Shown here: piece after piece, positions 3,734-63,433 of the stretch
Position numbering within the stretch: position 1 is the first letter of the stretch
Layout of the letters: each line of letters starts with the position of its first letter
Assembly (NCBI GenBank): GCA_947630835.1
Contig: CANRIZ010000014.1
Coordinates: forward strand, 1-64,000
Source of the DNA: an uncultured Clostridia bacterium
Lineage (GTDB): Bacteria; Bacillota; Clostridia; Oscillospirales; Acutalibacteraceae
DNA length: 64,000 nt
Reading direction: 5' to 3'
Program-made: the position numbers and the translations under genes
Notes under the pieces: model-generated
The model's input: only the letters and a program-made list of their open reading frames with translations
Database searches by the model: none
Told to the model about the DNA's origin: nothing

Positions 3734-5128
3734 ATGGAAAAAAGCAACAGAAATTCTTTTTCGGGGTCAATAGGCTTCGTGCTTGCGGCGGCGGGCAGCG
3801 CCGTGGGACTCGGCAACATATGGAGGTTTCCGTACCTTGCCGCCAAGGACGGGGGCGGAATGTTCCTGTTCGTTTACATAATCCTCGCCCTGACCTTCGG
3901 CTTTACGCTGTTGATTACCGAGGTGTCAATAGGCAGAAAAACAAAGCAAAGCCCGCTTACCGCTTACGGCGTTCTTAATAAAAAATGGGGCTTTCTCGGC
4001 ATTATCGCCTGTATCGTTCCCGCAATTATTTTACCGTATTACTGCGCGATAGGCGGTTGGGTGACAAAATATTTGTGGGTGTACTTGTCCGGCAACGGCC
4101 CTGCCGCAGCCTCGGACGGATACTTTACCGATTTTATCTCCGCAAGGGCTCAGCCCGTTACAGCGATGATTATTTTCCTTGCGGCGGTCGCCTTTATTGT
4201 ATTCAGGGGAGTAAACAAGGGTATAGAAACGCTTTCAAAGGTGCTTATGCCTCTGTTGCTTTTGTTTGTGGTTGCGATTTCCGTTTTTTCGCTTACCATA
4301 AGCCACACGGACGAAAACGGAGTAACGAGAACCGGACTCGAGGGCTTGAGCGTTTATGTGATACCGAATTTTGAGGGAATAACCGTACACGGCTTTTTGA
4401 ACGTGCTTATTGACGCTATGGGCCAGTTATTCTTCAGCCTGAGCGTTGCTATGGGCATTATGATAACCTACGGTTCTTATGTTTCGGACAAGGCCGACTT
4501 GAAAAAATCCATAAATCAGATTGAAATTTTCGATACTGCCGTAGCTTTCCTTGCGGGAGTTATGATAATACCCGCCGTTTTTACCTTTGCCGGCAGCGAG
4601 GGTATGGCGGCGTCCGGCCCCGGGCTTATGTTCGTAACGCTTCCCAAGGTATTTAGCAAAATGGGCGTTTTGGGCAATATTATGGGCGGTCTTTTCTTCG
4701 CTATGGTGCTTTTTGCGGCGCTTACAAGCGCGGTTTCGATTATGGAAGCGGTAGTTTCAAGCTTTATTGATAAATTCAGACTTTCGAGGAATAAGGCTAC
4801 TTTGGCGGTAACGCTTATCGCGCTTGCGGTTGGGCTTGTTGTGTGCTTCGGCTACAATATGCTGTATTTCGAGCTTCCCCTGCCAAACGGCGCAACGGCG
4901 CAAATTCTCGACATTCTCGACTATGTAAGCAACAACCTCCTTATGCCCTTGACGGCGATAGGAACCTGCGTTCTCATAGGCTGGGTAATAAAGCCGCAAA
5001 CGATTATAGACGAGGTGGAAAAGACGGGCGTAAAAATGGGCAGGAAGCGACTTTATATCGTTATGATAAAATTTATCGCCCCGATTTTGCTTGCGGTGCT
5101 GTTTGTTAAATCCCTCGGAGTTTTTTAA
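3734..5128 (+). CDS. sodium-dependent NSS/SNF family transporter
   Basis: 'FSGSIGFVLAAAGSAVGLGNIWRFPYLAAKDGGGMFLFVYII' signature; multiple TM segments. Confidence 0.93.
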   Translation: MEKSNRNSFSGSIGFVLAAAGSAVGLGNIWRFPYLAAKDGGGMFLFVYIILALTFGFTLLITEVSIGRKTKQSPLTAYGVLNKKWGFLGIIACIVPAIILPYYCAIGGWVTKYLWVYLSGNGPAAASDGYFTDFISARAQPVTAMIIFLAAVAFIVFRGVNKGIETLSKVLMPLLLLFVVAISVFSLTISHTDENGVTRTGLEGLSVYVIPNFEGITVHGFLNVLIDAMGQLFFSLSVAMGIMITYGSYVSDKADLKKSINQIEIFDTAVAFLAGVMIIPAVFTFAGSEGMAASGPGLMFVTLPKVFSKMGVLGNIMGGLFFAMVLFAALTSAVSIMEAVVSSFIDKFRLSRNKATLAVTLIALAVGLVVCFGYNMLYFELPLPNGATAQILDILDYVSNNLLMPLTAIGTCVLIGWVIKPQTIIDEVEKTGVKMGRKRLYIVMIKFIAPILLAVLFVKSLGVF

Positions 5129-6315: not shown

Positions 6316-6606
6316 TTACCACTCAACCCACTCCATATCTGCCTCAGCTTCCCAAAATGTTTTGCCTTCAAAAATAGGCTCATTTTGGGCAAGCTCTAAG
6401 CATTTTTCTAAAGTGGAAGCTGTTTTGTTAAACACGGTTTTAGAATAGTTCCCGTTTTTGTCCCAAGTGTCAATCACATAAGAGTATTCATTCTTTTCTT
6501 TATCAAATATAAGACCGTGAAAAAAGTATTTCACGTCTTTATATATCACAGCACATTCCTCAAATGTGGTTTGGTCAATAAATTTGTATACATTTCCGCC
6601 TTTCAT
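6316..6606 (-). CDS. small 'FWEVE'-type partner protein, island 1
   Basis: C-terminus 'IFEGKTFWEAEADMEWVEW' matches paralogues at 41961, 42652 and 43337; 4-bp overlap with the upstream MGGRGTF gene. Confidence 0.75.
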   Translation of the reverse strand: MKGGNVYKFIDQTTFEECAVIYKDVKYFFHGLIFDKEKNEYSYVIDTWDKNGNYSKTVFNKTASTLEKCLELAQNEPIFEGKTFWEAEADMEWVEW

Positions 6607-6980
6607 AAATTCAGCCCCTTAAAATATTTTTTGTATTTTTTATATTCGTTCTTTGTCAATAGTCGCGGTGTTCTATCAGCAAATTTGTCTCGCTTATATT
6701 CGTGAATATGCAATACCGGATTATGATTTCCCGTCAAATTAGGTTCCGGATGATATGCAATTTCTCTTACAAGATAATGGTCTTTATCATATTCTCTGTA
6801 CATCTTAAATTTCCCGTCAGGATGTAATTGTATATAAGCACCACTTGAATGTGCTTCTGCCGGTAATCCTTTTGAATTGCCGTCTTTGCCTTGCAATACT
6901 TTCACACCGTCAATTTTTCCAACAGTTTCATATGTATATGCAATATTATTACCTGCCGCAAATGTACCTCTGCCGCCCAT
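6603..6980 (-). CDS. 'MGGRGTF' family small protein, island 1
   Basis: MGGRGTFAAGNNIAYTYETVGKIDGVKVL...LPAEAHSSGAYIQL...EIAYHPEP...PVLHIHEY...LTKNEYKKYKKYFKG; closely similar to the copies at 42935 and 43612. Confidence 0.8.
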   Translation of the reverse strand: MGGRGTFAAGNNIAYTYETVGKIDGVKVLQGKDGNSKGLPAEAHSSGAYIQLHPDGKFKMYREYDKDHYLVREIAYHPEPNLTGNHNPVLHIHEYKRDKFADRTPRLLTKNEYKKYKKYFKGLNL

Positions 6981-6981
6981 A

Positions 6982-7605
6982 TCAGCGCACCACCTTTCTT
7001 GAAGATTGGTAGTCCACCGACACGATGTTTCCTTCCATTTCGGGAAACGGAGTACCGAGCACGATGATTTTATCGGGTTGCAAACGCTCTAACATTTCGT
7101 TGTAACCACGCATAAAGCCTATACGGGAACTTTTACACCCGATCATACCAACGGCAACCGTGCCGCCTTGCTCTACGCCGTCAAAACAAAATTCAAAGCT
7201 ACGGGCATCACTCCAACTGATAGTCGGGATAACTGTTTTGCCCTTACTTTGCCAATATGCACCCACCCAACGATTTTTTGCAACGCTTTCAAGCTGCCGC
7301 CATAAATCCATATCGGCGTAGGTTGAAAAATCGGGAGTAAGCAGAAACGCATATTGAGAATAGCGTTTCAATGAACGATCGGGGTTATCATATGTTCCCG
7401 AAAAACGATAATCGTCAACAAAGAAATGCACGCCTTTTTTCTTGTTTACATCGTTATCGTTCATCTTTGTGTCAGAGCAGGCTATCAACATAATATCATC
7501 GGTAGATAGCGATTGTTTCTTGACAAGGGGTACACCCCACTTGCCAACGGGCGTAAAAGAATTTCGCATAAAAAGAGGGTTGCCCCTCATAACTTTACTT
7601 GTCAT
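6982..7605 (-). CDS. DUF4417-like protein, island 1
   Basis: Strongly similar to the island-2 protein at 43997-44620 (RxxPLFMRNS..., KKGVHFFVDDYRFSGxYDxPxRSLxRYSQYAFLLTPDFSTYxDMDLWRQ). DUF4417 name assigned from recalled family features. Confidence 0.7.
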   Translation of the reverse strand: MTSKVMRGNPLFMRNSFTPVGKWGVPLVKKQSLSTDDIMLIACSDTKMNDNDVNKKKGVHFFVDDYRFSGTYDNPDRSLKRYSQYAFLLTPDFSTYADMDLWRQLESVAKNRWVGAYWQSKGKTVIPTISWSDARSFEFCFDGVEQGGTVAVGMIGCKSSRIGFMRGYNEMLERLQPDKIIVLGTPFPEMEGNIVSVDYQSSRKVVR

Positions 7606-7685
7606 ATTATGACACCTCCGGAATTATATATGTTTTTTGAATGACTTTTTCACAGCAGAAAATCGAACATTTTGTACGATTACTG

Positions 7686-7797
7686 TTGCATTTTTCTCCG
7701 GAATGTGCTAATATATATTTACCAAAATACGAATGGGCACATTCGGAGATTAACACTGTATTGATTGCGCAACAATCTGTACAGTGTTTTCTTTTTT
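7686..7797 (+). ncRNA. putative small RNA / structured element between immA-like and DUF4417 genes, island 1
   Basis: Plus-strand TTGCAT-17 nt-TAATAT (7686-7714), then CGAAT-GGGCAC-ATTCG hairpin and terminator-like hairpin CACTGTA...TACAGTG (7754-7786) with TTTTCTTTTTT. Also a dyad 7695-7708/7737-7749. Same architecture at 44700-44807. Confidence 0.5.
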
Positions 7798-7845
7798 GCT
7801 TTTCAACAATCAATTCACAACACCGTCCTTTCCATTAATTTTATA

Positions 7846-8394
7846 TTACACAGCCACTTTGAAAAGCTGAAGCAATCGTATTTCGTAATTGGTATAATCC
7901 TTATTGCCGTAAGTCAACCATTTGCGATAGTAAGAGAAGACGTAGTTTGCTGCTTCAAGACTGATGTCAAAATGCTTGTAAACCTCGTGAGCATCCTTTA
8001 ATTCCAACTTATGTATGAGTACGGGCGGAGCAAGAGCGTATTTTGCAAAGAATTTCGCTTCAGCTTCAGCCAATTCGCTTTCTTCGGTGTGATCCAAGAC
8101 AATATGCCCACATTCGTGACTTATGGTGTTGTTAATACGCCTGTAGCTTTTTGCATCGTTATAAAAAATGTACCACACGCCGTCTTTTCTGACAGAGAAT
8201 CCGTCTTCGCTTTCTTGCATCATAAGTTGACATGCTTCTTCGGATTTTGAGGAATAAGGGACTACAATTGCGCCAAGTTTTGTTGCCATTTCAAAACCGC
8301 TTATAGGAATGCAGCGAATATTAAGTTCTTCAAAAGTGTTGACAACAATCTCTTTGATTTCCTCACAGCGCTTATCGGATAATTTAAATGCCAA
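7846..8394 (-). CDS. ImmA/IrrE family metallo-endopeptidase, island 1
   Basis: HExxH motif 'NNTISHECGHIVLDHTEESELAEAEAKFFAKYALAPP'. Confidence 0.9.
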   Translation of the reverse strand: MAFKLSDKRCEEIKEIVVNTFEELNIRCIPISGFEMATKLGAIVVPYSSKSEEACQLMMQESEDGFSVRKDGVWYIFYNDAKSYRRINNTISHECGHIVLDHTEESELAEAEAKFFAKYALAPPVLIHKLELKDAHEVYKHFDISLEAANYVFSYYRKWLTYGNKDYTNYEIRLLQLFKVAV

Positions 8395-8396
8395 TA

Positions 8397-8708
8397 TTAA
8401 TCCTCCCCGAACAGAGCAGAAATCAGCGCCCGTTTTTGCTTTTCCGTCATTGTTGCGGAGTTCCTTGCCAATAAACGCTCTACCTTTGGGAAATTGAAAT
8501 TATCGGGCTCTATACCAAGCAGATAATCCGATGTTGTATGCAAAGCGGTGGCAATATTCGCAAGCATATCCGCTTTTGGCTCCCTGTCACCGGAAACATA
8601 ACGAGAGAGCGTCGCTTCGGTTGTGTTAATTCTGTCGGCAAGCTCTTTTTGCGTTATACCTTGTTTTTGCAATAGGCTTGATAACCTTTGTCCAAATGCT
8701 TTACTCAT
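8397..8708 (-). CDS. XRE-family HTH regulator, island 1
   Basis: 'LSSLLQKQGITQKELADRINTTEATLSRYVSGDREPKADMLANIATAL'. Confidence 0.92.
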   Translation of the reverse strand: MSKAFGQRLSSLLQKQGITQKELADRINTTEATLSRYVSGDREPKADMLANIATALHTTSDYLLGIEPDNFNFPKVERLLARNSATMTEKQKRALISALFGED

Positions 8709-8748
8709 AGTATAATTCTCCTTATTTTCGGGTGACTTTTAATTTGAC

Positions 8749-8790
8749 TTACCAAAAGTATAATCTATATTACCAAAAAAGTCAAGAACT
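8749..8790 (-). promoter_or_regulatory. promoter and putative operator of island-1 XRE gene
   Basis: Minus strand TTGACT-17 nt-TATACT; two direct TTACCAAAA (plus-strand sense) at 8749-8757 and 8770-8778, 21 bp apart; third copy at 7719-7727. Confidence 0.6.
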
Positions 8791-27339: not shown

Positions 27340-27432
27340 CAGGCGAAAACCAATATTTTGTAAACTCAAATAAAATATTGACAAATTTTAATTTGGGGAA
27401 TATAATCTATAAAAGCTTTACGAAAAATAAAT

Positions 27433-27526
27433 AACCGGGGGTGCTGGCGCTAAGCCGGCTGAGATTACGGATATTGCTTCGTTGACCCTTTAACCTGATA
27501 CGGATAATGCCGTCGTAGGAAGTATA
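27433..27526 (+). ncRNA. TPP riboswitch (THI element)
   Basis: Conserved 'GGGGGTGCTGGCG..GCCGGCTGAGATTACGG...GACCCTTTAACCTGATACGGATAATGCCGTCGTAGGAAGT'; upstream of ThiT. Confidence 0.93.
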
Positions 27527-27551
27527 AAGAAAAAGTTTTCTTGGCCTTACG

Positions 27552-41960: not shown

Positions 41961-42251
41961 TTAACCGAATAAGACTGTGATATCTTGTTCTGCCTCGTAA
42001 ATGGTTCTTCCGTCAAAAAGTTTGGCTTTCTCAAATTGCTTAACACATTCGGCATGATTTTTGCCGTGACAACGAAAAATGTAATTCTCATCTCCAAAGC
42101 ATTCGAATATTACAAATTCCACAAGCGTCGTATCATTCTCGTATACCTGGGATTCCATAAAATACCGTTTTCCGTTATACTCAAACTCTTTTTCCGGACC
42201 GCCCATTGTCAATAAATCGTTGATAAATTCAGCTAAAGTATTTCCTTTCAT
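41961..42251 (-). CDS. 'FWEVE'-type small partner protein, island 2 copy 3 (divergent)
   Basis: 'MKGNTLAEFINDLL...EKAKLFDGRTIYEAEQDITVLFG' aligns with the C-terminal motif of the other copies. Confidence 0.7.
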   Translation of the reverse strand: MKGNTLAEFINDLLTMGGPEKEFEYNGKRYFMESQVYENDTTLVEFVIFECFGDENYIFRCHGKNHAECVKQFEKAKLFDGRTIYEAEQDITVLFG

Positions 42252-42257
42252 CAATGG

Positions 42258-42637
42258 TTACCCCTTAAAAAATGATTTGTATCGTTTATATTCGGTGCGT
42301 GTTAATTTGCGCTTCACAGTAGTTGGGGAATTATGATAATCTATTCCCGGCTTTTGATGAATATGAATATGCAGCAATCCCCTTTGCCGAGACTCGGTTC
42401 ATGATGATACCCAATTTCCAAAGTAATTTCGTGATTTTCGTTATATTCTCGATATTGATGAAAAACGCCGTCTTTATCGAGAAGAATATAACTAAAACTC
42501 GAATGTGCCTCTTCGGGCAATTTATAGGATTTAGATTTATCAATAGGTTGCAAAACTTTAACACCATTGATTTCGTCAACAATTTCGAAAGTATAAGGAA
42601 CCGGATTTCCGCTTGCAAAAGTACCTCTTCCACCCAT
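42258..42637 (-). pseudogene. 'MGGRGTF' family gene, island 2 copy 3, frameshifted
   Basis: MGGRGTFASGNPVPYTFEIV...EIGYHHEPSLGKG, then frame lost; a third frame continues as LLHIHIHQKPGIDYHNSPTTVKRKLTRTEYKRYKSFFKG* (stop 42258-42260), matching the family C-terminus. Confidence 0.8.
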
Positions 42638-42651
42638 ATCAGCGCACCACC

Positions 42652-42942
42652 TTAACAATCTACCCACTGCATATCCTTTTCAACTTCCCAGAAGGTTTTT
42701 CCGTTCCAAATTTTTGCATTTTCAAAGTCGGTAATACAATCTGAAACAGACAACCGAGAAGTTGAGAAGATAGTAGAGCTACAGGTAAGATTATAGATTT
42801 CAAGCACTACCTTAATAATTTTTCCCTTTTCGTCCTTTGTAACTTGGCAGCCGTTGAAAAAGAATTTTTTGCCGTCATATATTACATAGTGGTCTTCATA
42901 AGATAATTTATCAATGAAATCTTTTGCATTTCCGTCAATCAT
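42652..42942 (-). CDS. 'FWEVE'-type small partner protein, island 2 copy 2
   Basis: 'MIDGNAKDFIDKLSYEDHYVIYDGKKFFFNG...FENAKIWNGKTFWEVEKDMQWVDC'. Confidence 0.75.
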   Translation of the reverse strand: MIDGNAKDFIDKLSYEDHYVIYDGKKFFFNGCQVTKDEKGKIIKVVLEIYNLTCSSTIFSTSRLSVSDCITDFENAKIWNGKTFWEVEKDMQWVDC

Positions 42943-43321
42943 ACCATTTTCGTCCTTTCATATATTTTTTGTATTTTTCAAAAGTTTGTCTGTCCAAATA
43001 TTGAGCAGGCCCGTGAGTAAAATCCTTATCGTAATAATGAATGTGAAGCACAGGATCATGATGCCCCGTTAGTCGAGGTTCGGGATGATAGGCAATTTCC
43101 ATTTTCAGCATATGATCTTCCTTGCCGTAAATTCTAAGCATACCCATTGTTCCGTCTTTGTGGAGCTTTAAGTACATTTCGCTTGAATGTGCTTCGGCGG
43201 GGAGATCATGTAAACCGGTTCCCGGTATTCCTATGAGGACTTTTACGCCATCATATTTATCGACAGTCTGATATGTATAAGGAACCGGATTTCCTGCCGC
43301 AAAAGTACCTCTTCCGCCCAT
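42935..43321 (-). CDS. 'MGGRGTF' family small protein, island 2 copy 2
   Basis: MGGRGTFAAGNPVPYTYQTVDKYDGVKVL...LPAEAHSSEMYLKL...EIAYHPEPRLTGHHDPVLHIHYY. Confidence 0.8.
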   Translation of the reverse strand: MGGRGTFAAGNPVPYTYQTVDKYDGVKVLIGIPGTGLHDLPAEAHSSEMYLKLHKDGTMGMLRIYGKEDHMLKMEIAYHPEPRLTGHHDPVLHIHYYDKDFTHGPAQYLDRQTFEKYKKYMKGRKWYD

Positions 43322-43336
43322 ATCAGCACACCACCC

Positions 43337-43615
43337 TTAACAGTCTACCCACTGCATATCCTTTTCAACTTCCCAAAAGGATTTCCCACCGAAGATTTTT
43401 GCGCTGACAAACTCTGAAACGGGATAGTTTTTATCTTTTGAATAGGCACGCCATTCAAAACGGCTGTCAGAAGGTTCCAAAACATAAAGCTCCAGCGTCG
43501 GTGTTTTGTTTTCCAAATAGCCTTGTATAAAATATTTATTCCCGTTGTAGAGAAAAAAACGCTCATCGCCATAATACAGACCATCGATAAACTCTTGTGC
43601 ATTTCCGTTTATCAA
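43337..43615 (-). CDS. 'FWEVE'-type small partner protein, island 2 copy 1
   Basis: 'MINGNAQEFIDGLYYGDERFFLYNGNKYFIQG...SAKIFGGKSFWEVEKDMQWVDC'; C-terminus same as copy 2. Confidence 0.75.
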   Translation of the reverse strand: MINGNAQEFIDGLYYGDERFFLYNGNKYFIQGYLENKTPTLELYVLEPSDSRFEWRAYSKDKNYPVSEFVSAKIFGGKSFWEVEKDMQWVDC

Positions 43616-43995
43616 GATAATTTCACTCCCTTCAAATATTTTTTATACCTTTTAATTTCTTCCGATGTCATCAAACGTGGCGTTCGGTCTTGAAAATTGT
43701 CTCTGCTATATTCATGAATATGTAGAACATTCTCCGATCTATTTCCATTGTTCAATTTCGGCTCCGGGTGATATGCAATCTCTCGAATGAGATAGTGGTC
43801 TTTGTCATAAAAACGCATTTCATGGAATGTGCCGTCTGGTTTTAGTTTGATATAAGCGCTGCTAGAATGTGCTTCGTCGGGCAGACTGTGCTTCCCGTTT
43901 ATCCCTTCTAAAACCTTTACATCCTCAATATAGCCGACGGTTTTGTATGTATAATCCACTGGATTTCCTACCGCGAAAGTACCTCTTCCTCCCAT
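43612..43995 (-). CDS. 'MGGRGTF' family small protein, island 2 copy 1
   Basis: MGGRGTFAVGNPVDYTYKTVGYIEDVKVLEG...LPDEAHSSSAYIKLKPDGTFHEMRFYDKDHYLIREIAYHPEP...VLHIHEYSRDNFQDRTPRLMT. Confidence 0.8.
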   Translation of the reverse strand: MGGRGTFAVGNPVDYTYKTVGYIEDVKVLEGINGKHSLPDEAHSSSAYIKLKPDGTFHEMRFYDKDHYLIREIAYHPEPKLNNGNRSENVLHIHEYSRDNFQDRTPRLMTSEEIKRYKKYLKGVKLS

Positions 43996-43996
43996 G

Positions 43997-44620
43997 TCAC
44001 CGCACCACCTTTCTTGAAGACAGATAGTCTACCGGTACAATATTGCCCTTCATCTCGGGAAACGGCGTACCGAAAACGATGATTTTTTCGGGCTGTAACC
44101 GCTCGAGCATTTCGTTATAACCGCGCAAAAAGCCAAGGCGGGAACGCTTGCACCCGATCATACCCACAGCGACTGTTCCGCTTTGCTCGACGCCGTCAAA
44201 GCAGAATTCAAAACTGCGGCTGTCGCTCCAGCTGATGGTTGGAACCACCCTCAATCCTTTGCTTTGCCAATACGCACCTACCCAGCGATTTTTCCCAACA
44301 CTTTCGATCTGCCGCCACAAATCCATATCGGAGTATGTCGAGAAATCCGGTGTAAGCAAAAATGCATATTGAGAGTATCTCCTTAGCGAGCGTTCGGGAT
44401 GATCATATATTCCGCTGAACCGATAATCGTCAACAAAAAAGTGAACGCCTTTTTTCTTGTTTCCTTCGCTATCATTTGACCTTGTGTCGGAACATGCCAC
44501 TAAGTTGATTTTGTCAAAAGGAAGATTTTGCCTTTTAACAATGGGGATACCCCATTTTCCTGCGGTTTCATAAGAGTTCCGCATAAAAAGCGGATCTTCA
44601 CGCATCTGTTTACTTTTCAT
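43997..44620 (-). CDS. DUF4417-like protein, island 2
   Basis: Strong similarity to 6982-7605 along its whole length; start trimmed to MKSKQMREDPLFMRNS by comparison. Confidence 0.7.
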   Translation of the reverse strand: MKSKQMREDPLFMRNSYETAGKWGIPIVKRQNLPFDKINLVACSDTRSNDSEGNKKKGVHFFVDDYRFSGIYDHPERSLRRYSQYAFLLTPDFSTYSDMDLWRQIESVGKNRWVGAYWQSKGLRVVPTISWSDSRSFEFCFDGVEQSGTVAVGMIGCKRSRLGFLRGYNEMLERLQPEKIIVFGTPFPEMKGNIVPVDYLSSRKVVR

Positions 44621-44699
44621 AATGAGTATAATCCTTTCCGGGATCATTACGGAAACGGCATTGGATCCCGTGCTTTTGTTGAAAATTTACCGCTTCCAC

Positions 44700-44807
44700 T
44701 TGATTTTTGCCCCGAAATATGTTATACTCAAAAAGCCAAGACGAATATAACAGTATTCGGGGAATTGCATCGTTATAACTGCTCGAACAGCTATAACGGT
44801 GCTTTTT
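44700..44807 (+). ncRNA. putative small RNA / structured element, island 2 (counterpart of 7686-7797)
   Basis: Plus-strand TTGATT-17 nt-TATACT (44700-44728), CGAAT-ATAACAGT-ATTCG hairpin, terminator-like hairpin 44767-44802 (GCATCGTTATA...TATAACGGTGC) plus TTTTT. Also dyad CCCCGAAATATGTTATA (44710-44726) / TATAACAGTATTCGGGG (44746-44762). Confidence 0.5.
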
Positions 44808-44862
44808 CTGTATATAAGTTAATCATAAAGATATTCCTCCTTTCCGTTCATTCACAGCGCAC

Positions 44863-45387
44863 TTAATAAGTCAACCGTTTCTTTGCGGCGGACTCCGATA
44901 CGCCGTAGACCTGCATTATTTCTTCTTTTGTCATTCCTTTTGTGCTCTCATAAGGCATCATGACTTCTCCTGCAAGGGCCATAACGATCCATTCTAAACG
45001 CTTATATGCAGGAGTTTCCTTTGTTAATTGGCGTGAAAAAATGGGCTTGAATCCGAGTTTGTCGGCAAACGGGTGCATAATTTCGTGAATGATGTGCATT
45101 CTGTGTCCGCCGATTTTCTTCTCATATGCACCTTTATATACGGAATCTTTTATTTGTATGAGATAACCGTCTTCGGTTTTTACGCATTGTGCCGGAACAT
45201 TACCAGGAAGTTCGTCGTTATATACTATCGTGTACCTGACATCTTCAAAGCCCTCAAAATCGGGGAGCCTGTCAAGAAGTTTCACTGGGTCAATCGATTC
45301 ATCTTGCGTTAAGCCGCATATTGAGCGAAAGAGTTTTGCATATAAGCGAAGTTCGTGTCGGTTAGTCGGTTTCGTCTCGTAATCCAC
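44863..45387 (-). CDS. ImmA/IrrE family metallo-endopeptidase, island 2
   Basis: 'GHRMHIIHEIMHPFADKLGFKPIFSRQLTKETPAYKRLEWIVMALAGEVMMP'; little obvious identity to the island-1 protein. Confidence 0.8.
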   Translation of the reverse strand: MDYETKPTNRHELRLYAKLFRSICGLTQDESIDPVKLLDRLPDFEGFEDVRYTIVYNDELPGNVPAQCVKTEDGYLIQIKDSVYKGAYEKKIGGHRMHIIHEIMHPFADKLGFKPIFSRQLTKETPAYKRLEWIVMALAGEVMMPYESTKGMTKEEIMQVYGVSESAAKKRLTY

Positions 45388-45755
45388 TACTCATCCTCCT
45401 TGTTCAGGAGTTTCATAATGGCTTCAGCGGTATCTTCGTCAAGATTCTCAAAGGATCTCTGAAATTGAACAGCGAGCTGCCTCTGGGTGTTAGACGCGGA
45501 GGTAAGATTTATTTTCATTTGCGTCTTAGACGACTCAATGGCATCAAGCAATTCCGCTTTTTTCTCCGAATCCAGCTTATAATGCTCTACGATTTTCGGA
45601 ATCCACTCTTCCGGAACATTCCTTTTTCCGCTTTCGACGGTGGAAACAAAAGGGATCTTTACTTCCAGCATCTTTGCGGTGTCGCCCATAACCTCATGTG
45701 CTTTTACCCTAAGTACACGCATAAATTCTCCGTATTTTGTATATGCCATTTTCAA
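45387..45755 (-). CDS. HTH (XRE-like) regulator, island 2
   Basis: 'YGEFMRVLRVKAHEVMGDTAKMLEVKIPFVSTVESGKRNVPEEWIPKIVEHYKL'; 1-bp overlap with immA-like gene. Confidence 0.8.
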   Translation of the reverse strand: MKMAYTKYGEFMRVLRVKAHEVMGDTAKMLEVKIPFVSTVESGKRNVPEEWIPKIVEHYKLDSEKKAELLDAIESSKTQMKINLTSASNTQRQLAVQFQRSFENLDEDTAEAIMKLLNKEDE

Positions 45756-60264: not shown

Positions 60265-60493
60265 ACTTTAATCGCGTTTCTCTCTAAAAAGAAAAAGTAA
60301 TAATGTAAAATTAAAGCGGTTGTGCCGAGGCAAATTTCGGTATAGCCGCTTTGGTTTGTTAGCTTGTATTAATTTGATTAAGAAAAAATTGCTTTTACAA
60401 AGCAATAGGAAACCCCCGGCGAGGGTTTCCCACGATAAAACAGTCCACCGGACTGTTTTATCTCCCTTCCTGCGCTTTTTGAAGTAAAAGTAT

Positions 60494-60812
60494 TTCGCAG
60501 TCTGCGGACTGCGACGAGGGCTTTGCCCCTCGACCCCACCGACTTTTGTAAAAGTCGGGGAAAACATTGATTGTCGCCCGCCGCAAATTTAAGCGAAGCT
60601 TTGACTTCTGTCCGCCGAAAGCTTAAACAGGCATTTACAAAAAGTTCAAGTCAAAAAGTTAAGTTAAAAATCAAGCGGTTATGACGAGGCAAAATTCGGT
60701 ATAACCGCTTTGATTTTCATCTGTAAAAGGCAAAATCCAAGTTTTATACCCTGATCTCTCGGTCATTCACCCTGATTGTATTGAAATTCAAATTTTTAAG
60801 TTGTAAAATCAA
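60494..60812. repeat. intergenic repeat unit, copy A (stacked hairpins ending in a promoter)
   Basis: Near-identical over long stretches to 63005-63327: CGCAGTCTGCGGACTGCG, CGAGGG-CTTTG-CCCCTCG, CCGACTTTT-GT-AAAAGTCGG, AAGCGGTTAT...ATAACCGCTT, then the ACCCTGAT promoter. Confidence 0.85.
60748..60809 (+). promoter_or_regulatory. shared cohesin/dockerin promoter, copy 2
   Basis: ACCCTGAT at 60748 and 60769 (21 bp), 4 bp, TTGAAA (60781), 17 nt, TAAAAT (60804). Confidence 0.7.
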
Positions 60813-60914
60813 AAGTGTCAGAAAAAATTTGCAAAATCGGCGTATGGCAGAATAGAAGTTCAACAAATAATCCGCCGAAAATCACAATATATTTTATCTC
60901 GGAAAGGAAAAATT

Positions 60915-62891
60915 ATGAAAACAAAAAGGTTTATTTCTCTTTTATTATCGCTCATTCTGATATTGACCGCCCTCCCTCTTGTCGGGGTCGCTTCGTTTGC
61001 CGAGACAAGCGGGGATTTCGAATATGAAATTATCGGGGACGGCACGGCGGAAATTACATATTATAGCGGCGACGCACAAACGCTTTACATTCCCTCGACA
61101 ATCGACGGATATCCCGTTACCGGCATAGGCAAGTTGGCGTTTTACACCAACGACAGCCTTTCAAGCGTAATAATCCCGAACGGCGTAACTTATATAGGAG
61201 AGGAAGCGTTTTCGGATTGTAACGGCTTAACGGATATTGTAATACCCGAAAGCGTTAAAATTATAGATGACTACGCTTTTTGGTACTGCAGCAACTTAAC
61301 GGGTCTGACGATACCCAACGGCGTTGAAACCATAGGCGAAGAAGCTTTTTGTATGTGCCGCGGTTCGACAAGCTTGAATATTCCCGAAAGCGTTGTATTT
61401 ATCGGCAACGGCGCATTTTCCGCGTGGGAAGATTTGACCGAAATAACCGTTGACGAAAGCAATGCAAACTTTTCCTCTCGGGACGGAGTATTGTTTAACA
61501 AGGACAAAACCGAGATTATACTGTATCCTATTGGCAAAACCGAGACATCATATATAATCCCGGACGGCGTTACAAGCATAGGTGAAAGCGCATTTGCCGG
61601 TTCATGTTTATCAAGCATAATAATCCCCGACAGCGTTACAAATATGGGCGATTATGCGTTTTCGGATTGTGCCGGCTTGGCAAGTATAACAATCCCCGAA
61701 AAAGTTACAAGCATAGGCAAATCCGTATTTTATGACTGCAGCAGTTTAACAAGCGTAACCATTCCCGACAGCGTAACGTCCATAGGCGACTACGCGTTTA
61801 ACAAATGCGGCAGTTTAACCTATGCGGCGATACCCGACGGCTTAACGTCCATAGGCGAAGAGTCGTTTGCATACTGCTGCAGCTTGTACGGCATATCAAT
61901 ACCCGAAAGCGTTACAAGCATAGGCGCTTGGGCGTTCTATGATACGGGATATTACCAAAATTATTCAAACTGGGAAAACGGCGTTCTTTACATAGACAAC
62001 TGTTTAATAGCGGCAAACAGCGATGAAATTTCCGAAAATTATGAAATTAAAGAGGGAACAAGGCTGATTGCGGACACGGCTGTTGCCGATTGTTACGGTT
62101 TAACAAGCGCGGCAATACCCGACAGCGTAGTTAATATAGGTCGGGGACCGTTTATAGGCTGTACCGCATTAACGGAAATAACGGTTGACGGGAACAATGA
62201 AAACTATTGCTCATATGACGGCATATTGTTCAATACAGATAAAACAGCGCTCATACAATATCCTGTAGGTAAAGAAACAACGTCTTACGCCATACCCGAC
62301 AGCGTTGAAAGCGTAGGCTACGGCGCGTTTGCATATTGCGCCGGCTTAACTGACATAACCATTCCCAACAGCGTTACAAGCATAGGCGAAAAAGCGGTTA
62401 TGTGCTGTGACGGCTTAACAAGCATAACCTTACCCGAAAGCGTTGCGTTTATAGGCAATTTTGCATTTGCGGATTGCAGAGGACTAACCGATATATACAT
62501 ATTAAACAGAGAATGTGAAATAATTAATAATTATCAAGGCACAGATACCGCGACCATCTTGCCCTATACAACAATCCACGCTTACGCAGGTTCGACTGCG
62601 GAGGAATATGCAAATAAATACGGTAACAGGTTCGCAGTAATTGAAGGCGAACCGACAAATCCCGATACCCCCAAACCGACAGGCGAAGTAAGCGGCGACG
62701 GCAAGCTTTCAACCGTAGACGCAAAATGGATTTTGCAGAACATAGCGAAGTCAAGGGAATTCAGCGATGAGCAATTCAAGGCTGCCGACCTCAACGGCGA
62801 CGGAAAATTGTCCGTAGTTGACGTTAAGTGGGTACTCCAGATTATTGCAGGTATGCGTGACGCCGAGACTTTGGAGTTAATAACCAAATAA
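60915..62891 (+). CDS. BspA-type leucine-rich-repeat protein with C-terminal dockerin
   Basis: Signal peptide; repeats 'IPDSVTSIGDYAFxxCxxLTxITIPxSV'; C-terminal 'GDGKLSTVDAKWILQNIAKSREFSDEQFKAADLNGDGKLSVVDVKWVLQIIAGMRD'. Confidence 0.93.
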   Translation: MKTKRFISLLLSLILILTALPLVGVASFAETSGDFEYEIIGDGTAEITYYSGDAQTLYIPSTIDGYPVTGIGKLAFYTNDSLSSVIIPNGVTYIGEEAFSDCNGLTDIVIPESVKIIDDYAFWYCSNLTGLTIPNGVETIGEEAFCMCRGSTSLNIPESVVFIGNGAFSAWEDLTEITVDESNANFSSRDGVLFNKDKTEIILYPIGKTETSYIIPDGVTSIGESAFAGSCLSSIIIPDSVTNMGDYAFSDCAGLASITIPEKVTSIGKSVFYDCSSLTSVTIPDSVTSIGDYAFNKCGSLTYAAIPDGLTSIGEESFAYCCSLYGISIPESVTSIGAWAFYDTGYYQNYSNWENGVLYIDNCLIAANSDEISENYEIKEGTRLIADTAVADCYGLTSAAIPDSVVNIGRGPFIGCTALTEITVDGNNENYCSYDGILFNTDKTALIQYPVGKETTSYAIPDSVESVGYGAFAYCAGLTDITIPNSVTSIGEKAVMCCDGLTSITLPESVAFIGNFAFADCRGLTDIYILNRECEIINNYQGTDTATILPYTTIHAYAGSTAEEYANKYGNRFAVIEGEPTNPDTPKPTGEVSGDGKLSTVDAKWILQNIAKSREFSDEQFKAADLNGDGKLSVVDVKWVLQIIAGMRDAETLELITK

Positions 62892-63004
62892 TTAAAAGTA
62901 AAAGCATTTACAAAAAGTTCAAGTTCAAAAGTTGAGTTAAAAATTAAGCGGTTGTGCTGAGGTAAAATTCGGTATAACCGCTTTTGTAATATAATTAAAA
63001 GGGA

Positions 63005-63327
63005 TTTCGCAGTCTGCGGACTGCGACGAGGGCTTTGCCCCTCGACCCCCCCCCCGACTTTTGTAAAAGTCGGGGAAAACATTGACTGTCGCTCCCCGCA
63101 AATTTAAGCAAAGCTTTGACCTCTGTCCGCCGAAAGCTTAAACAGGCATTTACAAAAAGTTCAAGTCAAAAAGTTAAGTTAAAAATCAAGCGGTTATGAC
63201 GAGGCAAAATTCGGTATAACCGCTTTGATTTTCATCTGTAAAAGGCAAAATCCAAGTTTTATACCCTGATCTCTCGGTCATTCACCCTGATTGTATTGAA
63301 ATTTATTTTTTTAAGTTGTAAAATCAA
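63005..63327. repeat. intergenic repeat unit, copy B
   Basis: Same unit as 60494-60812; contains a run of 10 C (63046-63055) where copy A has CCCCACC. Confidence 0.85.
63263..63324 (+). promoter_or_regulatory. shared cohesin/dockerin promoter, copy 3
   Basis: ACCCTGAT at 63263 and 63284 (21 bp), 4 bp, TTGAAA (63296), 17 nt, TAAAAT (63319). Confidence 0.7.
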
Positions 63328-63433
63328 AAATGCAATAAATATTTTGCTAAGTCGGCGGAACCAAAAAAACAAAATCAAATTAAAAAAAACAAAAATTCCG
63401 CCGAAAAATTTTTATGGCAGAAAGGAAAGAAAG

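Follow-up and report, generated by a model that had tools for sequence, protein, structure and literature searches.

Polymorphic toxin systems combine exchangeable toxin domains, including EndoU, Ntox50 and Ntox37, with an immunity gene just downstream, orphan immunity genes and cassette exchange (Zhang 2012, PMC3482391). In temperate phages, polymorphic toxins of the MuF type are carried on minor capsid-type proteins (Jamet 2017, PMC5576092). Repressor cleavage on DNA damage, in turn, is known for ImmR/ImmA of ICEBs1, an integrative and conjugative element (ICE), for CapH/CapP on CBASS (cyclic oligonucleotide-based antiphage signalling system) and for DdrO/IrrE (PMC10233336). In this study, we relate these systems to two gene islands in a 64,000-nucleotide (nt) stretch of contig CANRIZ010000014.1, hereafter the window, from an uncultured Clostridia bacterium of the Acutalibacteraceae. 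Each island carries an XRE-ImmA regulator pair, a structured RNA, a DUF4417 gene and one or more pairs of small genes, here called MGGRGTF and FWEVE. We consider it probable that they are toxin-immunity modules derepressed by stress, in which XRE-ImmA, an RNA leader and DUF4417 precede an exchangeable cassette.

All the features listed above for polymorphic toxin systems recur in this module. It differs in two ways: its putative toxins are small and stand-alone, beginning with a short Gly-rich leader and lacking an N-terminal trafficking domain, and a fixed chassis, made up of XRE-ImmA, the structured RNA and DUF4417, lies upstream of them. We see it as a variant of these systems under ImmR/ImmA- or CapH/CapP-like control and, because no trafficking domain is present, not as a canonical member. 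As in ImmR/ImmA, CapH/CapP and DdrO/IrrE, an XRE repressor gene is followed by a gene for an M78 metalloprotease with HExxH; here, however, the pair would govern a toxin-immunity cassette, whereas the known pairs act on an ICE, CBASS or a DNA repair regulon, with cleavage presumed by analogy. The DUF4417 proteins are clear members of their family by sequence (PF14386; 163 and 168 bits in islands 1 and 2 against a curated cut-off of 28.9). This family includes ParB-DUF4417 fusions in phages (PMC12704722), whereas here the protein is stand-alone and its chromosomal operon includes a putative toxin cassette; the literature consulted on DUF4417 draws no link to toxins.

Island 1 consists of five genes, all on the minus strand, with neighbours 1-2 nt apart or overlapping by 4 nt, except for a 240-nt gap between ImmA and DUF4417. 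The tight co-directional packing and the XRE and ImmA-type regulator pair, both proposed in a model's earlier sequence-only reading of this DNA, were thus confirmed. Its features are as follows.

8757..8785, minus strand: sigma-70-like promoter (TTGACT-17-TATACT) 5′ of XRE, a consensus match only
8397..8708, minus strand: XRE (HTH_3) repressor gene (Pfam HTH_3, E 8.9e-14)
7846..8394, minus strand: ImmA/IrrE-type metalloprotease gene (M78, HECGH; Pfam PF06114, E 2.2e-7)
7695..7795, minus strand: structured RNA, a presumed leader with two hairpins, between ImmA and DUF4417 (covariance-model match, E 8.7e-5)
6982..7605, minus strand: DUF4417 protein (PF14386, E 6.2e-48)
6603..6980, minus strand: MGGRGTF, small protein predicted to be a toxin; it has an MGGRG leader and an all-beta core (cognate co-variation, predicted structure)
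6316..6606, minus strand: FWEVE, predicted cognate immunity protein, 4-nt overlap with MGGRGTF (profile match, co-variation)

Repeats of TTTTGGTAA surround the promoter-like site and are a possible operator. In the closest sampled genome of the same genus, the TraX-like gene and the lipoprotein gene are present in synteny but island 1 is missing between them, which marks it as a variable island; a clean empty site was not found, as this relative has a different small gene there.

The genes after the regulators are a swappable cassette. The source genome has a third XRE-ImmA-DUF4417 operon, located on a different contig (L003; G000 contig C7, 66273-66827 and neighbours). It encodes XRE, ImmA (M78, 4.8e-16) and DUF4417 (2.1e-38), and after them an EndoU nuclease toxin (PF14436, 2.3e-14) and a partner of 109 aa. 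So that the choice of loci would not depend on MGGRGTF, we searched for DUF4417 in 292 Clostridia genomes, 30 of them positive, and read the regions around it. There, the gene after DUF4417 is usually toxin-like and is followed by a second small gene. The cargos include Ntox50 (1.2e-27), Ntox37 (2.9e-6) and a weak restriction endonuclease-like match (0.006), and their partners include a YezG-like immunity protein (0.001) and DUF2247 (2.9e-33), the latter listed as Imm38 by Zhang 2012 (PMC3482391). At their N-terminus, most cargos have a Gly-rich leader (MGAGAGGDFGNTKGS, MGTGAGGNFGNTNGS and MGGRG are examples). Their start codon abuts or overlaps the DUF4417 stop in many loci. The constant part is DUF4417 with the Gly-rich leader, and the variable part is EndoU, Ntox50, Ntox37, MGGRGTF or others. 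In one small-genome genus (L145-L147), an HNH-like protein comes after DUF4417, and zinc-ribbon proteins are encoded further along; L145 additionally has a small PHDHYW-containing protein after the HNH-like one, and in L200 a zinc-ribbon protein similar to those of L145-L147 matches the FWEVE profile.

MGGRGTF and FWEVE behave as a cognate pair. Their distances correlate across 87 adjacent pairs (r 0.772; none of 2000 permutations as high), and the partial Mantel correlation given DUF4417 distance is 0.722 for 60 first cassettes (again 0/2000). In multi-cassette loci, the nearest MGGRGTF of another locus indicates the correct FWEVE in 17 of 21 cases. FWEVE also occurs without a preceding MGGRGTF (16 copies in 11 loci), and tandem arrays are seen. 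Island 2 (41961-45755) follows the plan of island 1, with three MGGRGTF-FWEVE pairs.

45387..45755, minus strand: XRE-type regulator (HTH_31, E 1.9e-4; consensus-like promoter upstream)
44863..45387, minus strand: ImmA/M78 protein (HEIMH; PF06114, E 3.8e-5)
44708..44810, minus strand: structured RNA, presumed leader (covariance-model match, E 0.01)
43997..44629, minus strand: DUF4417 protein (PF14386, E 1.3e-49)
43612..43995, minus strand: MGGRGTF, toxin-like copy 1 (profile match, co-variation)
43337..43615, minus strand: FWEVE, partner of copy 1 (profile match, co-variation)
42935..43321, minus strand: MGGRGTF, toxin-like copy 2 (profile match, co-variation)
42652..42942, minus strand: FWEVE, partner of copy 2 (profile match, co-variation)
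42255..42637, minus strand: MGGRGTF copy 3, broken (profile matches 42383-42568 and 42255-42389 in different frames)
41961..42254, minus strand: FWEVE, intact, partner of broken copy 3 (profile match)

Copy 3 has a frame shift near 42385, so that its open reading frame ends early and the C-terminal third lies in another frame. The two intact cassettes have their nearest relatives in different genomes (94% to L017 and 89% to L055), as fits cassette exchange. From the co-variation, the tandem arrays with orphan FWEVE and the broken MGGRGTF beside an intact FWEVE, the most likely roles are toxin for MGGRGTF and cognate immunity protein for FWEVE. The sequence-only reading had ventured a toxin/immunity role and had placed the functional core after the regulators; cargo swapping, cognate co-variation and orphan immunity copies speak for both. 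That reading had also noted that DUF4417, MGGRGTF, FWEVE and the intergenic element recur in a second locus, as borne out by island 2, behind unrelated regulators; the regulators are indeed unrelated in sequence, but not in type, since both islands have XRE and ImmA/M78, with HExxH in each protease and an XRE gene adjacent.

The arrangement extends well beyond the source genome. Our MGGRGTF profile search of GTDB genomes matched 120 encoding stretches, of which 80 were kept for analysis, including seven short pieces of the source genome. Across these approximately 80 loci, XRE-ImmA-DUF4417-MGGRGTF-FWEVE is the commonest order (iterated profiles of the five families: MGGRGTF 87, DUF4417 84, FWEVE 82, ImmA 63, XRE 60), which clearly goes against the refuting condition named in the sequence-only reading, a lack of joint occurrence in other genomes. 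Gaps in the operons mostly fall at contig ends or runs of N. Among 80 DUF4417-MGGRGTF operons, 74 had sufficient upstream sequence; a separate ImmA was present in 56 of these, and one had a 360-aa protein combining an XRE-like start with HEVGH. Nearly all carriers are gut or rumen bacteria, with gut Clostridia and Erysipelotrichaceae among them; others are labelled, as metagenome-assembled genomes (MAGs) in which binning errors are possible, Fibrobacter, Gastranaerophilales, Opitutales and Riflebacteria. One cultured carrier is Anaeromassilibacillus An867 (L011). A scan of IMG/VR gave no relative and plasmids gave none, and phage records gave one unannotated match (L088; MT835546.1, 'Bacteriophage sp.'), an entire bacterial-type operon beside a chromosomal-type PSP1-like gene, which is probably a bacterial contig. 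An apparent giant MGGRGTF fusion in L079/L081 was rejected as an assembly gap of N. In L017, L036, L049, L063 and L066, a 357-376-aa protein, Fic-family-like by eye, stands instead of XRE-ImmA, with DUF4417 and the cassette retained. Separately, a lone MGGRGTF-FWEVE cassette was found in a genome without any DUF4417 match (L199 in G041, ~4290-4880).

The intergenic element is a real structured RNA. In the gap between ImmA and DUF4417 there are two hairpins, the first with a 7-bp outer and a 4-bp inner stem, the second with a 13-bp stem. RNAalifold on MAFFT alignments was unusable owing to misalignment and was replaced by a covariance model built from nine loci, with the structure given by hand on a close subset, and searched over 1.38 Mb. 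It matches most operons at the expected place, whatever their cargo, including both islands of the window, where a structured intergenic element had been predicted; a handful of the matches represent these palindromes read in antisense. In 43 matches (42 distinct), 91% of cells pair and 22 of 24 pairs are changed on both sides. Covariation is 0.553 against 0.183 (standard deviation 0.011) in shuffled and at most 0.126 in slid controls, numbers that lean towards the model because the alignment was fitted by it; in the nine-sequence MAFFT seed alone it is 0.271 against 0.142. The A-rich 5′ flank and a loop G are conserved though unpaired, and they favour RNA over a DNA palindrome. No Rfam match exceeded the gathering score, and the element was not found in the phage-type DUF4417 loci L131 and L143 (L144 to L147 lay outside the search). 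Its position suggests a leader that would control the operon. In L009, L010, L012, L024, L014, L030 and L088, an outer helix can close over the two hairpins (ACATAAAAGA/TCTTTTATGT or TGACAAAG/CTTTGTCA); this helix possibly competes with another hairpin further along, ahead of the ribosome site of DUF4417, as an RNA switch would.

To discern how the module may work, we draw on the regulators named at the outset. The XRE repressor and the ImmA-type metalloprotease would control the promoter in the manner of ImmR/ImmA or CapH/CapP, and DNA damage or phage attack would activate ImmA, leading to cleavage of XRE. The transcript would then pass through the two-hairpin leader into DUF4417 and the exchangeable cassette. 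The first product of the cassette would be a small toxin that starts with a Gly-rich leader and whose translation is coupled to that of DUF4417 (here MGGRGTF), the second its cognate immunity protein (here FWEVE). Cassettes can be duplicated, swapped (EndoU, Ntox50, Ntox37, others) or reduced to immunity only. We consider this the most economical account. Operon conservation, the RNA structure, the exchange of cargo and the co-variation are observed, whereas the toxicity of MGGRGTF, its neutralisation by FWEVE, the trigger and the site of action (in the cell as an abortive response or, once released, on neighbouring cells) are inferred. Orphan immunity arrays favour antagonism, while the missing export domain points to suicide or to release upon lysis; on account of the orphan genes we lean slightly towards use against neighbours.

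Several findings weigh against this interpretation. Searches of Pfam, NCBIfam and PADLOC place neither MGGRGTF nor FWEVE in a toxin or immunity family, giving chance-level matches only, as also in PHROGs; PDB searches by sequence, and by fold for MGGRGTF, yielded nothing significant. MGGRGTF (125 aa, short leader, no Pfam domain) carries no export or trafficking domain, and in some loci other proteins occupy the place of XRE-ImmA. In phages, moreover, relatives of MGGRGTF adjoin DUF4417 and terminase but have no evident immunity gene nearby, so toxicity may not have been the ancestral function.

Links to phages came from both structure and sequence. The predicted structure of MGGRGTF is all-beta with a C-terminal helix (predicted local distance difference test, pLDDT, 84) and, in BFVD, matches parts of phage proteins, the best being A0A8S5TVS2 (9.8e-6), followed by the 367-aa phage protein A0A8S5UYN8 (2.0e-5) and the 406-aa minor capsid protein A0A8S5M376 (5.4e-5). 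MuF toxins are carried on proteins of this kind (PMC5576092), and we count the match in favour of the toxin reading. Profile comparison relates MGGRGTF to MGGRG...PHTHxGY proteins (probability 95, E 3.4e-8); in phages of Streptococcus, Dorea and Roseburia, the genes for these adjoin DUF4417 and lie immediately upstream of terminase (PMC8066415). The DUF4417/MGGRG pair may be of phage origin. MuF toxins are the nearest described analogue: the fold of MGGRGTF matches phage proteins, a minor capsid protein among them, and phage relatives of the DUF4417/MGGRG pair adjoin terminase. Unlike MuF toxins, our module has no MuF domain and does not lie in a prophage, and its toxin-like gene is separate, amid chromosomal genes. 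Whether the genes form part of a known phage module, as the sequence-only reading had asked, has a divided answer: relatives do exist beside terminase, but the pair is not a known structural or replication module. The AlphaFold 2 model of DUF4417 (pLDDT 90) has no clear known fold; a TIM-barrel-like fold was weak (best E 0.04, template modelling score < 0.46) and judged unusable. An alignment by hhalign of the single L142 toxin sequence with MGGRGTF was not significant, and the likeness of their H-rich motifs is an impression only.

The alternative that deserves most attention, though we doubt it somewhat, is an intracellular abortive-infection or addiction module, in which ImmA senses phage or DNA damage, the toxin stays in the cell, the antidote is overwhelmed and the infected cell stops growing. 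CapH/CapP-type XRE and ImmA pairs govern suicidal CBASS (PMC10233336), the PADLOC capP and RmrA models match our ImmA, no secretion domain was found and the distribution is patchy, with island 1 absent from the closest sampled relative. Yet orphan immunity genes and multi-immunity arrays are hard to reconcile with toxins acting purely in their own cell, and with toxin and immunity in one operon, derepression would raise both. The defence role entertained in the sequence-only reading is likewise without direct support, as the non-regulator genes (DUF4417, MGGRGTF, FWEVE) match no PADLOC family.

It is improbable, in our view, that bacteria have simply kept a phage accessory or packaging-associated function, with MGGRGTF no toxin and FWEVE a regulator or partner: the placement just upstream of terminase and the profile match to the phage family would be explained, but the bacterial slot also holds recognised nuclease toxins with recognised immunity families, FWEVE co-varies with MGGRGTF and was absent next to those phage copies that we examined, and the IMG/VR scan gave no relative. 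The small two-gene pair, its overlapping frames and its strict pairing also recall a conventional type II toxin-antitoxin system, with FWEVE (or MGGRGTF) as antitoxin and XRE as an extra regulator. We think this improbable as well, given that unrelated cargo pairs have regulation, RNA leader and DUF4417 in common, that several cargos are polymorphic-toxin families and that additional immunity-only genes are present.

Within the toxin-immunity module that we favour, a bolder and rather unlikely extension is that DUF4417 serves specifically as a partner (adaptor, chaperone or modifier) of the short N-terminal MGxG leader and readies many small toxins, unrelated to one another, for delivery, perhaps by way of phage-like particles; the two-hairpin RNA would be a regulatory RNA class that is new and specific to such operons. 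If true, this would constitute a delivery logic for polymorphic toxins without earlier description. Our analysis offers a testable function for DUF4417, a widespread family in phages and gut bacteria, puts forward two new protein families as probable toxin and antidote, and describes a class of structured RNA that Rfam lacks. It also links ImmA switches, presumed to sense damage, with exchangeable toxin-immunity cassettes in a single compact module, found in gut Clostridia and, by MAG labels, other phyla.

Elsewhere in the window, a thiamine pyrophosphate riboswitch at 27427-27538 (plus strand) is the sole Rfam match, and positions 61170-62457 hold 69-nt tandem coding repeats that are leucine-rich with a BspA-like pattern. 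A dispersed near-identical repeat (60486-60833 and 62998-63348) is rich in GCAGTCCGCAGACTGCG / TCGAGGGGCAAAGCCCC palindromes, and is also present in a relative of the same genus (L163, near 14200).
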